Of a stretch of 64,000 nucleotides of DNA, positions 45,419 to 49,541 are shown piece by piece; position 1 is the stretch's first letter; the number at the start of each line of letters is the position of its first letter. Source of the stretch: Aggregatilineales bacterium (lineage in GTDB: Bacteria; Chloroflexota; Anaerolineae; Aggregatilineales; Phototrophicaceae); NCBI GenBank assembly GCA_030834905.1, contig JAUQWZ010000023.1, positions 1 through 64,000 of the forward strand, written 5' to 3'. Both the position numbers and the translations under genes were made by a program. The notes under the pieces were generated by a model that searched no databases, was not told the origin of the DNA, and saw only the letters and a list, made by a program, of their open reading frames with translations.

Positions 45419-47266
45419 CTACGGATGATTCCCATCCAGTTCGGTGATGTACAGCGTGCCGCTGACATAAGCATCGGCGCTGTACGACCCCACCCAGATA
45501 TCATACTGACCCGAAGCCGGATTGTTAAAATCAAGCGACGGATGAAGCGTGCCGAAGCTGTCGTCGATGCAGTGCCAACCGCCGCCCGGATTGTTGATGA
45601 TGAGGGTGGTATCGCCGCTGCCAACGAAATAGATCCGCAGCAGAGGGAAGCTGCCAGCGCTGTACTGGAGCCGGAAATCTGGCGCTGAGGTGGCAAAGCC
45701 GACGCAGCTTCCCCCCAGATACGAAGCGTTCACGCCGCCGCCGCTGGTCATGCCGATAGGATAGGGATCGGGCGAAAAACCAGACGCCAGCGTGACCGAG
45801 CCATAATTCGGTGATGAGCCGAAATTGAAAGCGCCGGTATTGGCAGGCGGAACGGCGGTGGGGTTGACAGGTGGTACTGCCGTCGGTACGAACGGCACAG
45901 TCGATACTATTGTAGGCGGGTTCCCGGCAGGCGGAGGATTGTTGTTGTTGACTGGAGGCGGCGCGCTGCCCACCGGCGCGAGCAGCGTCAAGCCATCGGC
46001 TGCTTCCGCTGCCCAGCCGATTACGCCGTTGTAGTTGATCTGCCACCAGGGCGCGTTATCCACACACTGGGGACCGTCAAGCACGCTAACGGCAGAATTG
46101 GTGTTGATCGTGCCGATCTGCTGGGCGCTGCGAGAGGGATTGCTGCGAATACGAACGTTGTTACCGCCGAAGCGCTGCGCCTGCCCGCCGAGGATCAGGC
46201 GCGTGGTATAGCCGCCGCATTCAATAAACGCGGGAACAGTCACGAGCGTTGGTGGGGATGGCGGCGCGGTCATTTCCAGAAAGAGCGTGTAGCCGCCCGT
46301 CGCCAGGCGGTCGAACGCACGTACATTGACGACGTAATCTCCGGTGCGGGGCAGCACGAAGCTTCTTATCAGTGAGTCGAGATTGCCCAGGCTGTCATCG
46401 TCTTCAAACAGGACATTGAGACTCGAATCGTAGAGCGTGAGGTAGGTGTCGAACTCCTCGGAAACGGCGCTGATACTGACCATATCCCCCGCGCTGGCGG
46501 AGAAGTTCCACAGGTCGCCACCGCTGTTGCTCACGGCGTTGCTGACGCCAATGCCACTCTGGAGAAAGCCTTCATTAGTAGGGATGTTCGGATCAGGCGT
46601 GACATCGGTTTCCACGATCAGATCGATGCCCTCCACAATGTTATCAATCTCCAGGCTGCCGATGATCGCTGAAGGATCAACCGCCTGCGCCGCGATGACT
46701 GCTGACCCGAAAGGTGATGTGGAAGCGTCAAAGATTGCCTCTGTTACCTCCAGCGGAATCGGATTGAGGTTCTGGTAACTCCTGTAAAGGGACTGAGCGG
46801 ACTCTTCAACGCGGTTGGCACAGTGCCCCAGAATCGGTCCGTTCCGACCGACCAGCAGCGTGTCATAGAGATCGCCAAAGGCAGTATTGGGCAGGAGCGC
46901 GCTCATACGGTCGATAAAGACCGCGCCGCTGGCATCGGCTTTCCACCAGAACGTCACCTGACTGTCGCCGTCAGGGACGATAACCAGCACCCAGGCATTG
47001 GGCGTGAAGCCCTGTGCGATTGTCGCGTCCAGCCCTTCGTTGTATACCTTCTCGTCGCACGAGCCGAGCGCAGATGATGTTGTCCCAATACCGCCGCTCT
47101 GCGGGCGCGACGTTGGCGTCGGGGGGTTGCGTCGGTTCGGCGGCGTGCCGTTCACCGGCTGGACACGGATGCTTCGGTTGCGTTCCGGCTGTGCGTGTGT
47201 CGCTAAAGGCACTATCGTGACGAGAATAATACATACCAGTATCATGAACCGCTTCGAACGTTTCAT
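45419..47266 (-). CDS. Secreted PPC and SH3b protein, partner gene of the TIR receptor
   Basis: A 615-residue exported protein. Signal peptide 1-25, Pro/Arg-rich linker (30-60), a novel domain (68-230) with paired Cys70 and Cys149, a PPC domain (about 235-332; F-S-A-S-A-G-D and F-D-T-Y-L-T-L-Y-D), an SH3b domain (about 350-430) with W-W-Q-I-N-Y and I-G-W-A, a Pro/Val-rich linker (432-490), and a C-terminal beta-sandwich (490-615). The last domain ends with S-G-Q-Y-D-I-W-V-G, a pattern found in other secreted sensor-like proteins. The ATG overlaps the stop of the TIR gene as ATGA, so the two are co-translated. No enzymatic motif is seen; ligand or wall binding is likely. Confidence 0.72.
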   Translation of the reverse strand: MKRSKRFMILVCIILVTIVPLATHAQPERNRSIRVQPVNGTPPNRRNPPTPTSRPQSGGIGTTSSALGSCDEKVYNEGLDATIAQGFTPNAWVLVIVPDGDSQVTFWWKADASGAVFIDRMSALLPNTAFGDLYDTLLVGRNGPILGHCANRVEESAQSLYRSYQNLNPIPLEVTEAIFDASTSPFGSAVIAAQAVDPSAIIGSLEIDNIVEGIDLIVETDVTPDPNIPTNEGFLQSGIGVSNAVSNSGGDLWNFSASAGDMVSISAVSEEFDTYLTLYDSSLNVLFEDDDSLGNLDSLIRSFVLPRTGDYVVNVRAFDRLATGGYTLFLEMTAPPSPPTLVTVPAFIECGGYTTRLILGGQAQRFGGNNVRIRSNPSRSAQQIGTINTNSAVSVLDGPQCVDNAPWWQINYNGVIGWAAEAADGLTLLAPVGSAPPPVNNNNPPPAGNPPTIVSTVPFVPTAVPPVNPTAVPPANTGAFNFGSSPNYGSVTLASGFSPDPYPIGMTSGGGVNASYLGGSCVGFATSAPDFRLQYSAGSFPLLRIYFVGSGDTTLIINNPGGGWHCIDDSFGTLHPSLDFNNPASGQYDIWVGSYSADAYVSGTLYITELDGNHP

Positions 47267-49299
47267 GAGGATTCCTCCTGTCCCTCCACTTCGGGAGTGG
47301 ACTGTTCCTGTGCTGCTTGAGGTGTGGATTGCTCTTCGGTCGCCGTCGTCGCCTTGCGCAACTCTTCATCAGCCGTATTGCGTAATGCCTCGAACATCGG
47401 CGTCCAATCGTCAAAGCCATAGTCCACCGACATACGCCGGGCGGTTTCGTAGAGGTCGCCTGCTTCCCGGTAGTCGCCCAACCAGTAGTTCGCGTCGCCT
47501 TTGTAGCCGGTGATCTGCATCTCTTGGAAGGGGATGATGCCGTCTATTTCCAGCCCACTATCGTACTCCTCAATCGCACGCCGGTACTCGCCAAACAACT
47601 GGGCAATGTCGCCGCGCATCAGATAGGTTTCGGCGGCGAATGGCGCAATCGTGACGAGGCGCTCGTCCTCGTACAGAGCCACCACCTGGCTTGAGGTTCG
47701 GTTAAACTGCTCGCAGTACTGGTTAATATCCTCGTCGCTGATCGTGTCGCTCGGCTCCAGATAGAAGCACAGGGCGTAAAGGATGCGGTTTTCATTGGTC
47801 ATCAGGGCTGCCTGGACGAAGGGCAGGCGTAGCGAGGGATCGCGTTCGTCCTGCGCCTGCTGGATCAGTGCGAGCGCTTCAAATAGCCGGTCAAAGTCAA
47901 AGCTCACCTGGCTGCAATCCGCCGCGTTGGCTTCGTCCTGCCAGCGGGCTTGCAGAAAGTAGGCGGCTGCCAAACCGGAAAACGGGCGTCCATAAGGTTC
48001 CTCGGCGGTGGCGTCGGCGCTTCGGTACTCGTCGATGGCGATATCGGTCTGTTCGAGCGCGGTGTCGCGGTCGCAGTTGTCGCTGGCGACGGCGGCGATA
48101 CGTAAACGCGCGTTGCCGACGAGCACGTCCACCACCTCGCGCCCGATCAGGTCTTCCCAGCCGTTCAACGAACGCACGCCTTCAAACGCATTCAGCGCCG
48201 CCTGATAATCGCTGCGAATGAACTTGGCGAGTCCGTCCACGATCAGGGCGATGGCGCGGCTGCGGTTGGTCAGTTCGTCTTCAGCATCCAGTTCTGCCGA
48301 AACGGGAATTGCCCTGCCAAAGCGCCCACCGCCGGTGAGATCCGCCGCCCCCGCGATGCTGCTCGTCAGGGCATAAAAACGCGGCTGAAGCACAAGCTGG
48401 TCGTTGCGGTCGCGCTCCACAACCCCATATACCACCACGTCGAGGTTGTGATCCCGCGCAATCTGCTGCGCGCTGATCTGAAGTGCTTCTGCGTCCCCGC
48501 CCTGCACCTGCCCCAGCGCCTCAGGACCACTGCATTCGAGGCTCAACTGCATCCGGTCAACAATCGTATCCAGTTGATCGCACAGTTGAACGCCGAAACT
48601 CTCCGCCAGCGCGCGGGCTTTGTTCGCCTCGACGTTTTCATTGCCCAGCGCAAAGTAAGCGACGCCGACGCCAATATCGGCGCGCGCGTACCATGTCGGC
48701 GTTGGGGGCAGCGGTGTTGCCGTGGGGGTGGTGATAGATGATGCGACCGCCGAGCCGAGGACGACGATCAGCAGCACCAGCAGCAGTCCCCCCAGGCTGG
48801 CGGCGAGCCAGCCAAAGCGTTCCCACCAGACCTTAAGCTGAAATTCCGGGCGGGGCAGTACGTTCGTCAGCCGCTTCAGCCCGGCGGCATAGTCCAGCGT
48901 GAGATCGACAAACTGGTACTCATCCAGCCCCATATCTGCCAGAGACTGATCGGCATCCAGGCGGCGCACCAGCACCGGAAAGATCGGCTTCTTCTCTTTC
49001 TTTGCCTGTTCAATTTCGTCACGGCAGAATTTGGAGCGCAGAAAATCGGGGGAGACGCAGGCGATGACGGCTTCTGAAGCGGTAAGCTGGTCGATCAACT
49101 CCTGCTTCCAGTTTTCGCCCGGCTCGATACCATGCTCATCAACATCCATCCACAGGACGTAATGACGCCTGCGCAGATCGTCAAAAAGCTGGTCTACGGC
49201 GAGGCGGTCACTGCGCGAATAACTGATGAATATCTGCGCGGACTGACGCTTTCTAGTATGAGATGTGTCATCGGGTGGAGACGACATAGGGCTGCTCAT
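47263..49299 (-). CDS. TIR domain protein with transmembrane helix and extracytoplasmic TolB-like/TPR region
   Basis: A 678-residue protein. The TIR domain (about 21-150) has F-I-S-Y-S-R-S-D, W-M-D-V-D-E near 50 and S-K-F-C-R-D-E-I-E; Glu95 is at the position of the catalytic Glu of NAD-hydrolysing TIRs, although activity is not proven. One membrane helix (about 163-187) is followed by a Thr/Pro linker (190-202) and an external region with a TolB/CsgG-like fold (205-320; V-V-V-Y-G-V-V) and TPR-like helical repeats (330-640). Thus TIR is inside and sensors are outside, the same topology as animal Toll-like receptors with reversed order. No ribosome-binding site is seen; a TATAAT (49333-49338) lies 34 nt upstream. 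Confidence 0.78.
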   Translation of the reverse strand: MSSPMSSPPDDTSHTRKRQSAQIFISYSRSDRLAVDQLFDDLRRRHYVLWMDVDEHGIEPGENWKQELIDQLTASEAVIACVSPDFLRSKFCRDEIEQAKKEKKPIFPVLVRRLDADQSLADMGLDEYQFVDLTLDYAAGLKRLTNVLPRPEFQLKVWWERFGWLAASLGGLLLVLLIVVLGSAVASSITTPTATPLPPTPTWYARADIGVGVAYFALGNENVEANKARALAESFGVQLCDQLDTIVDRMQLSLECSGPEALGQVQGGDAEALQISAQQIARDHNLDVVVYGVVERDRNDQLVLQPRFYALTSSIAGAADLTGGGRFGRAIPVSAELDAEDELTNRSRAIALIVDGLAKFIRSDYQAALNAFEGVRSLNGWEDLIGREVVDVLVGNARLRIAAVASDNCDRDTALEQTDIAIDEYRSADATAEEPYGRPFSGLAAAYFLQARWQDEANAADCSQVSFDFDRLFEALALIQQAQDERDPSLRLPFVQAALMTNENRILYALCFYLEPSDTISDEDINQYCEQFNRTSSQVVALYEDERLVTIAPFAAETYLMRGDIAQLFGEYRRAIEEYDSGLEIDGIIPFQEMQITGYKGDANYWLGDYREAGDLYETARRMSVDYGFDDWTPMFEALRNTADEELRKATTATEEQSTPQAAQEQSTPEVEGQEESS

Positions 49300-49446: not shown

Positions 49447-49454
49447 CTGAGAAG

Positions 49455-49541
49455 CGGAGGAGGCGGGATTCGAACCCGCGAAGGCTGTTACACCTTACTC
49501 GCTTTCCAAGCGAGCGCACTAGGCCACTATGCGACCCCTCC
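49455..49541 (-). tRNA. tRNA-Ser (anticodon GGA)
   Basis: An 87-nt tRNA on the minus strand. The acceptor GGAGGGG pairs with CTCCTCC (one G-U), the discriminator base is G, and the anticodon loop has CTTGGAAAG with GGA reading UCC/UCU serine codons. A long variable arm of the class II type and a T-arm with GGGTTCGAATCCC complete the cloverleaf. CCA is not encoded. A terminator follows directly. Confidence 0.93.

Follow-up and report, generated by a model that had tools for sequence, protein, structure and literature searches.

Do a membrane-bound TIR protein and the exported protein encoded directly behind it form a single receptor and, if so, what would such a receptor do for a bacterium? 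The question is raised by two overlapping genes at positions 45,419 to 49,299 of a 64,000-nucleotide stretch of DNA from an Aggregatilineales bacterium (assembly GCA_030834905.1, contig JAUQWZ010000023.1, positions 1 to 64,000 of the forward strand), which we refer to as the window. Gene 1 (47263..49299; 678 amino acids) is predicted from its open reading frame, Pfam matches, and an AlphaFold2 model to encode a receptor composed of a TIR domain, a single membrane helix, a Pro/Thr-rich linker, and an ectodomain consisting of an α/β domain followed by a TPR superhelix. Gene 2 (45419..47266; 615 amino acids) is predicted from its open reading frame, Pfam matches, and signal-like N-terminus to encode an exported partner assembled as a mosaic of ligand-binding modules. 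Both genes, together with all of their parts described below, lie on the minus strand. On sequence evidence, the conserved unit at this locus is the ectodomain of gene 1 together with an exported partner, because it is the ectodomain and not the TIR domain that the linkage follows; the TIR domain is one of several interchangeable cytosolic modules.

Linkage of the receptor gene to an exported gene

Linkage was scored by the same criterion in all sets of genes: a same-strand open reading frame of at least 100 amino acids, with an N-terminal signal-like segment, had to start between −45 and +150 nucleotides from the stop codon of the preceding gene. This definition was settled before any of the 40 new loci was fetched at the level of the class. 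In the discovery set, an exported or lipoprotein gene lies next downstream of 21/28 receptors, or of 15/21 after close relatives are collapsed (p = 1.8e-11). In the second sample, 32 of the 42 receptors in the 40 new loci are followed by an exported gene (p = 1.9e-21 against the background of the window genome, G000), and pooling both samples gives a Fisher p of 1.5e-32. The background amounts to 17/244 genes in 400 kb of G000 and 17/169 neighbour genes, which corresponds to 7–10% as compared with 75–76% for the receptors. An initial interpretation of this DNA from its letters alone, referred to here as the sequence-only reading, had staked its case on the pair staying together in relatives, and the homologues indeed prove to be linked. 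Among the new partners, 23/32 start within 10 nucleotides of the receptor stop codon and 15/32 carry a lipobox.

The overlap of the two window genes as ATGA (47263..47266), also part of that reading, is borne out by both open reading frames. A Shine-Dalgarno sequence, AGGAGG, lies within the end of gene 1 (47274..47279), 7 nucleotides from the ATG of gene 2, so that gene 2 could be translated both by coupling and from its own site. Overlaps of 1–4 nucleotides also occur in L094, L131, L132, and L137–L139 (L numbers denote loci and G numbers genomes), and many second-sample loci have them too.

TIR genes of the same genus that lack this ectodomain served as the control, and only 2/21 have an exported gene downstream. 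Linkage thus goes with the ectodomain, and the TIR domain itself was rejected as the linked element. The sequence-only reading had considered a membrane-spanning TIR protein with a secreted partner to be a form that it did not recognize. The linkage on which this rested is real, but a membrane-bound TIR is no novelty by itself: the genus has numerous TIR genes, many of which encode a hydrophobic segment.

A receptor family with exchangeable cytosolic parts

Few full-length relatives of the gene 1 product exist: those in G002 and G013 share about 40% identity with it, and that in G006 is more distant. A signal-peptide gene directly follows every one of them. Profiles of the ectodomain were seeded from the window's relatives and searched within the Chloroflexota phylum and class. 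The window receptor scores 483.7 bits on the ectodomain profile A4, and the window pair has the features that define the family, namely the A4 ectodomain, one transmembrane helix, and an exported gene at −4 nucleotides. The ectodomain-only profile also finds relatives without a TIR domain. Those in G001, G006, G002, G013, G014, and G069 carry DUF4062 (Pfam matches of 2e-20 and 7e-22), which occupies the N-terminal slot in L034, L035, L085, L094, and L096–L098; those in G022 and G035 show nothing recognizable as a cytosolic part. Across the phylum and class, the ectodomain follows nSTAND1 (E below 1e-120), EAD8 combined with nSTAND1, EAD7, EAD8, CHAT (Pfam matches up to 3e-33), or TIR. These modules were assigned by Pfam, as small home-made profiles recognized little in the second sample. 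The ectodomain is present in 66/396 genomes of the class, a patchy distribution that is not that of a core gene. The kinds of partner vary as well and include SH3b, LysM, PPC, FGE, and Ig-like proteins.

DUF4062 has been described in a 2026 preprint as a TIR-like NADase of an antiphage system (PMC13174449). An enzymatic role of the window TIR domain is supported because two NADase families, TIR and DUF4062, which are related but distinct, occupy the same slot.

Receptors with a short cytosolic part (L204, L208–L211, L221–L223, L226, and L231) share a motif resembling GDTIIANVGENVRNVVVGKNVIQIG that recurs immediately N-terminal to the membrane helix. This motif could serve in homotypic or amyloid-type signalling.

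Architecture and topology of the receptor

The AlphaFold2 model of the gene 1 product, which was built from a 7-row alignment and has a mean pLDDT of 75, divides the chain into a TIR domain (residues 22–147), a long helix (155–186), a disordered linker (187–206), an α/β domain (207–330; 48310..48681), and a TPR array (338–665; 47305..48288). Hydropathy places the single transmembrane helix at residues 171–189 (48733..48789). The TPR region resembles the TPR domain of LGN in a structure comparison of the predicted model (Z 22.7), and weak Pfam TPR matches fall at residues 556–644. In the 69 family members for which a helix was detected, a total of 188 lysine and arginine residues flank it N-terminally and 67 C-terminally; the N-terminal count is the larger in 53 receptors and the smaller in 5. 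This excess of positive charge supports a topology in which the TIR domain lies inside the cell and the TPR region outside. Pfam, hydropathy, the model, and the charge bias therefore agree with the layout first read from the sequence, and a cytoplasmic TPR region, which had been named as the outcome that would speak against it, is contradicted by the bias across the 69 receptors.

The region between the helix and the TPR array had been termed TolB-like. An α/β domain is indeed present there, but its name is not established. Its likeness to FlgO and the N-terminal part of TolB is weak: FlgO matches are found in one relative, L092, with E values of 0.008 and 0.023 that lie below the curated cut-off, and no other relative matches. 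No FlgO- or TolB-like chain was listed for residues 207–330 in the structure comparison, which barely tested this region.

The TIR domain and Glu95

The cytosolic TIR domain (residues 22–150; 48850..49236) matches Pfam TIR_2 at residues 23–144 (6.6e-24). The closest fold to the predicted domain is that of the SPARTA TIR-APAZ protein (8i87; Z 18.8, root-mean-square deviation 2.0 Å over 129 residues), and the TIR domains of the Hydra Toll-related receptor TRR-2 (Z 17.1) and MyD88 (Z 16.1) are also similar. The closest solved TIR by sequence is that of the CRISPR-associated protein Cat1, the glutamate of which aligns with Glu95 (codon 49015..49017). Glu95 lies within FCRDEIEQA and is invariant in 13/13 TIR-type relatives, including distant ones in which the flanking residues have diverged. 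The structural match carries residues 21..153 onto residues 3..144 of the SPARTA protein, which puts Glu95 at about its residue 77. The E77A substitution is a catalytic mutant of SPARTA, whose activation is known to proceed through self-assembly of TIR domains (PMC10474274). The window domain thus possesses both the fold and the catalytic-site glutamate of NADase TIRs, and it is likely to be NAD-destroying. The position that the sequence-only reading had assigned to Glu95 withstands modelling of the domain as well as the comparison with Cat1 and with relatives.

Membership in Thoeris, as a ThsB protein, was considered and rejected. The NCBIfam model ThcB4 scores 53 bits, below its cut-off of 220, and covers the TIR part only; the neighbouring gene encodes the exported partner and not a ThsA-type effector, and PADLOC reported nothing in the ten other neighbours.

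TIR domains are strongly expanded in the taxonomic family, with many genomes of 5–8 Mb containing at least 19 scored matches. The window genome also encodes a second membrane TIR protein (L236 1549–2835, G000:C46), which has a different ectodomain and is followed 25 nucleotides later by an exported protein.

The exported partner

The gene 2 product has a single N-terminal signal-like helix ending in THA followed by Q, and N-terminal hydropathy indicates a Sec signal peptide at residues 1–25 (MKRSKRFMILVCIILVTIVPLATHA, followed by Q; 47192..47266). It is followed by an N-terminal β domain (about residues 70–165; 46772..47059), a PPC domain (residues 251–317; 46316..46516; Pfam 8.2e-07), an SH3b domain (residues 370–421; 46004..46159; Pfam SH3_3 6.7e-10), and a C-terminal β domain (about residues 508–609; 45440..45745). 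The AlphaFold2 model of the partner, based on a three-row alignment, has a mean pLDDT of 44, which is too poor for a fold search; it is well built at the PPC region alone (pLDDT 74–89 over most of residues 231–335).

Profile comparisons refine the earlier description of an exported protein with PPC, SH3b, and β domains into that of a mosaic. The N-terminal β domain and PPC part correspond to those of the receptor-linked genes in G002 and G013 (hhalign probability 98.8%), and the C-terminal domain resembles that of the L095 partner (98.4%). The SH3b domain is common to the window partner, L033, L034, and L096, and an N-terminal β domain connects the partners of L033, L084, and the FGE type. Pfam domains detected in 45 partners comprise SH3_3 (8), LysM (7), Big_7 (5), N_BRCA1_IG (3), FGE-sulfatase (2), and PPC (2). 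The presence of LysM and SH3b suggests that the ligands of the partners are peptidoglycan or surface components.

The SH3b domain and C-terminal half of the window partner resemble a genus-wide secreted family whose matches lie mostly away from receptors, and secreted PPC/SH3b genes abound: most genomes of the genus yield more than 20 profile matches each. Many secreted proteins throughout the genus contain the C-terminal β domain, often as tandem copies, and it corresponds to no Pfam family. The exported partners of L086–L089, all from one genus, have at their C-terminus an FGE-sulfatase (C-type-lectin-like) domain, the fold that diversity-generating retroelements use.

Genomic setting

The pair adjoins a tRNA-Ser(GGA) gene (49454–49541). 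The same tRNA-Ser site, with conserved flanks (L162 and L164 were compared), holds Uma2-like and trehalase-like genes in G008 and a PAS-type sensor gene in G011; these names come from inspection of the sequences. Because the site holds other cargo in two relatives, it fits an exchangeable accessory locus. In L031 (5118–6287), L032 (6044–7207), and L095 (7857–9137), secreted trypsin/HtrA-like protease genes lie upstream, and the protease of L095 also carries SH3b domains.

Proposed mechanism and alternatives

We favour, with a confidence only a little above even, a reading of the pair as a conflict receptor in two components that spans the membrane and relies on an exported co-sensor, which would resemble TLR4/MD-2 in logic without being homologous to it. 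The gene 2 product, once exported, would bind a ligand of the cell wall or surface outside the membrane. The α/β and TPR ectodomain of the receptor would contact the partner and read its state, with control presumably passing from partner to receptor. Ligand binding would then alter clustering of the receptor through its single helix, and clustering would set the cytosolic TIR domains head to tail, the arrangement that NADase TIRs need. Cleavage of NAD+ would follow and either shut down the cell or generate a nucleotide signal, which would give the pair a role in defence or cell death.

Several observations weigh against this proposal. PADLOC found no defence genes among the ten neighbours of the window pair, and no defence island was seen around it. 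Automatic detection found no exported gene downstream of 10/42 new and 7/28 discovery receptors. Inspection by eye revealed one in L092 and L098 and a secreted SH3b gene convergent to the receptor in L034 and L035; in L091, L133, and L136, no exported gene lies immediately downstream. The N-termini of many distant members are short and contain no recognized effector. The signal-peptide test and gene calls were crude, being made with simple scripts, and most of the background genes are from one genome. No partner lies downstream of the TIR receptor gene of L091 (3594–5351, G023:C18); upstream of it, in divergent orientation, is a gene for an exported WD40 β-propeller protein.

An unlikely reading, though one to be taken seriously, is that the pair senses envelope stress or the state of the cell wall without a lethal effector. 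A partner with SH3b, LysM, or PPC domains would monitor the integrity of peptidoglycan or the surface, and the TIR domain would act as a scaffold or as a signal that modulates repair, adhesion, or development, as would EADs and CHAT in relatives; none of them would serve to kill. The wealth of wall- and surface-binding domains among the 45 partners is what this reading would predict, and it gains from the secreted proteases upstream of three receptors and from the absence of defence genes beside the window pair. It accounts poorly for the cytosolic repertoire, however: nSTAND1, CHAT, EAD7/8, TIR, and DUF4062 make up a prokaryotic conflict and cell-death set (PMC7159879, PMC8195603). The invariance of the glutamate and the patchy distribution of the family also speak against it.

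Improbable to a greater degree is an inhibitory pair, in which the partner silences the receptor and loss of the partner triggers the TIR domain in a guard-like manner, whether through proteolysis, failed export, or removal by an enzyme of a phage or predator. Tightly overlapping genes would fit the fixed stoichiometry that inhibition calls for, lipobox partners, which make up roughly half of the new set, would remain at the same membrane face, and secreted proteases adjoin some pairs; the varied, modular ligand-binding domains of the partners, however, look like those of sensors and not like a constant inhibitor. That an exported gene came to lie downstream of a membrane protein gene by chance or operon convenience, with no common function, is hardly credible despite the abundance of secreted PPC/SH3b genes in these genomes, given the excess over background in two samples, the second of newly fetched loci, the low control value, and the recurrence of overlaps.

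Significance

Going further, the window pair may represent a class of immune receptors of the bacterial cell surface that is widespread and works with separately exported co-sensors. In such a class, a single sensing unit facing outwards would be joined to any of several intracellular modules for killing or signalling, drawn from two NADase families, CHAT proteases, STAND NTPases, and death-domain-like adaptors. We advance this extension tentatively and rate its chances at somewhat below even. Such a class would be, in logic, a bacterial counterpart of the surface pattern-recognition receptors of animals. To our knowledge, the characterized bacterial TIR and STAND immune proteins sense threats inside the cell. 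If a receptor instead sensed the outside through a dedicated exported partner and acted on the same effectors, bacterial immunity would reach as far as the cell surface, and Toll-like receptors with secreted co-receptors would have an independent parallel in bacteria. With an ectodomain that stays constant and a partner linked to it, the family is readily recognized from sequence, and the exchange of two NADase families in one slot leads to the prediction that NAD+ is lost upon clustering.

Comparison with known systems

Antigen sensors of diversity-generating retroelements have C-type-lectin/FGE-like folds, are in some cases periplasmic, and are coupled to STAND, TIR, or CHAT (PMC10907252). 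The FGE partners of L086–L089 are similar; whereas the retroelement sensors are described there as fused to the NTPase target protein, the sensor in the window family would be a separate exported protein.

Conflict systems of multicellular prokaryotes likewise keep one component constant while exchanging TIR, CHAT/caspase-like, STAND, and EAD modules, and some of them, GAP1-N2 and EACC1, include transmembrane variants and external domains (Kaur et al. 2020, PMC7159879; Kaur et al. 2021, PMC8195603). Unlike in the systems described there, the constant part in the window family is the external TPR ectodomain with its exported partner. In the available portion of the 2020 paper (PMC7159879), TolB, signal peptides, and DUF4062 are not mentioned beyond a reference title. 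A MoxR-vWA or GAP1/GTPase gene is not evident beside the window pair, the neighbours having been scanned with PADLOC only and not with models of those families. The two-gene EACC1 system has a caspase-like 3′ gene, whereas the 3′ gene of the window is exported and has no Pfam caspase match, no EACC1 model having been run. A family that combines this ectodomain with an exported partner is not described in the available portions of the conflict-system and antigen-sensor papers (PMC7159879, PMC8195603, PMC10907252), and searches of open-licence papers for bacterial membrane TIR or TolB-TPR receptors turned up no account of one.

The Swarozyc DUF4062 NADases share with several family members the domain that fills the N-terminal slot, whereas the window member has a canonical TIR domain; the main text describes no membrane version, and the word 'transmembrane' is absent from it (PMC13174449). 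SPARTA TIR-APAZ and Cat1 share the TIR fold and glutamate position with the window protein. Those two are soluble proteins that respond to nucleic acid or cyclic nucleotide, whereas the window TIR domain is tied to an ectodomain that is predicted to face outwards.

TLR4 together with MD-2 constitutes a Toll-like receptor with a secreted co-receptor. Identity of the window protein with Toll-like receptors was rejected: the gene 1 product has no leucine-rich repeat match in Pfam, and it does not have a C-terminal TIR domain with the N-terminus outside. Its TIR domain is N-terminal, with the N-terminus predicted inside, and an α/β domain and TPRs take the place of leucine-rich repeats. The 'reversed Toll-like receptor' of the sequence-only reading therefore survives as an analogy of architecture and logic and not as homology. 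The window partner, unlike MD-2, is encoded in the same operon as its receptor, the TIR domain is likely enzymatic, and the arrangement comes without evidence of common descent; what the window pair has in common with TLR4/MD-2 is a cytosolic TIR domain, one membrane helix, an external repeat ectodomain, and a separate secreted partner.

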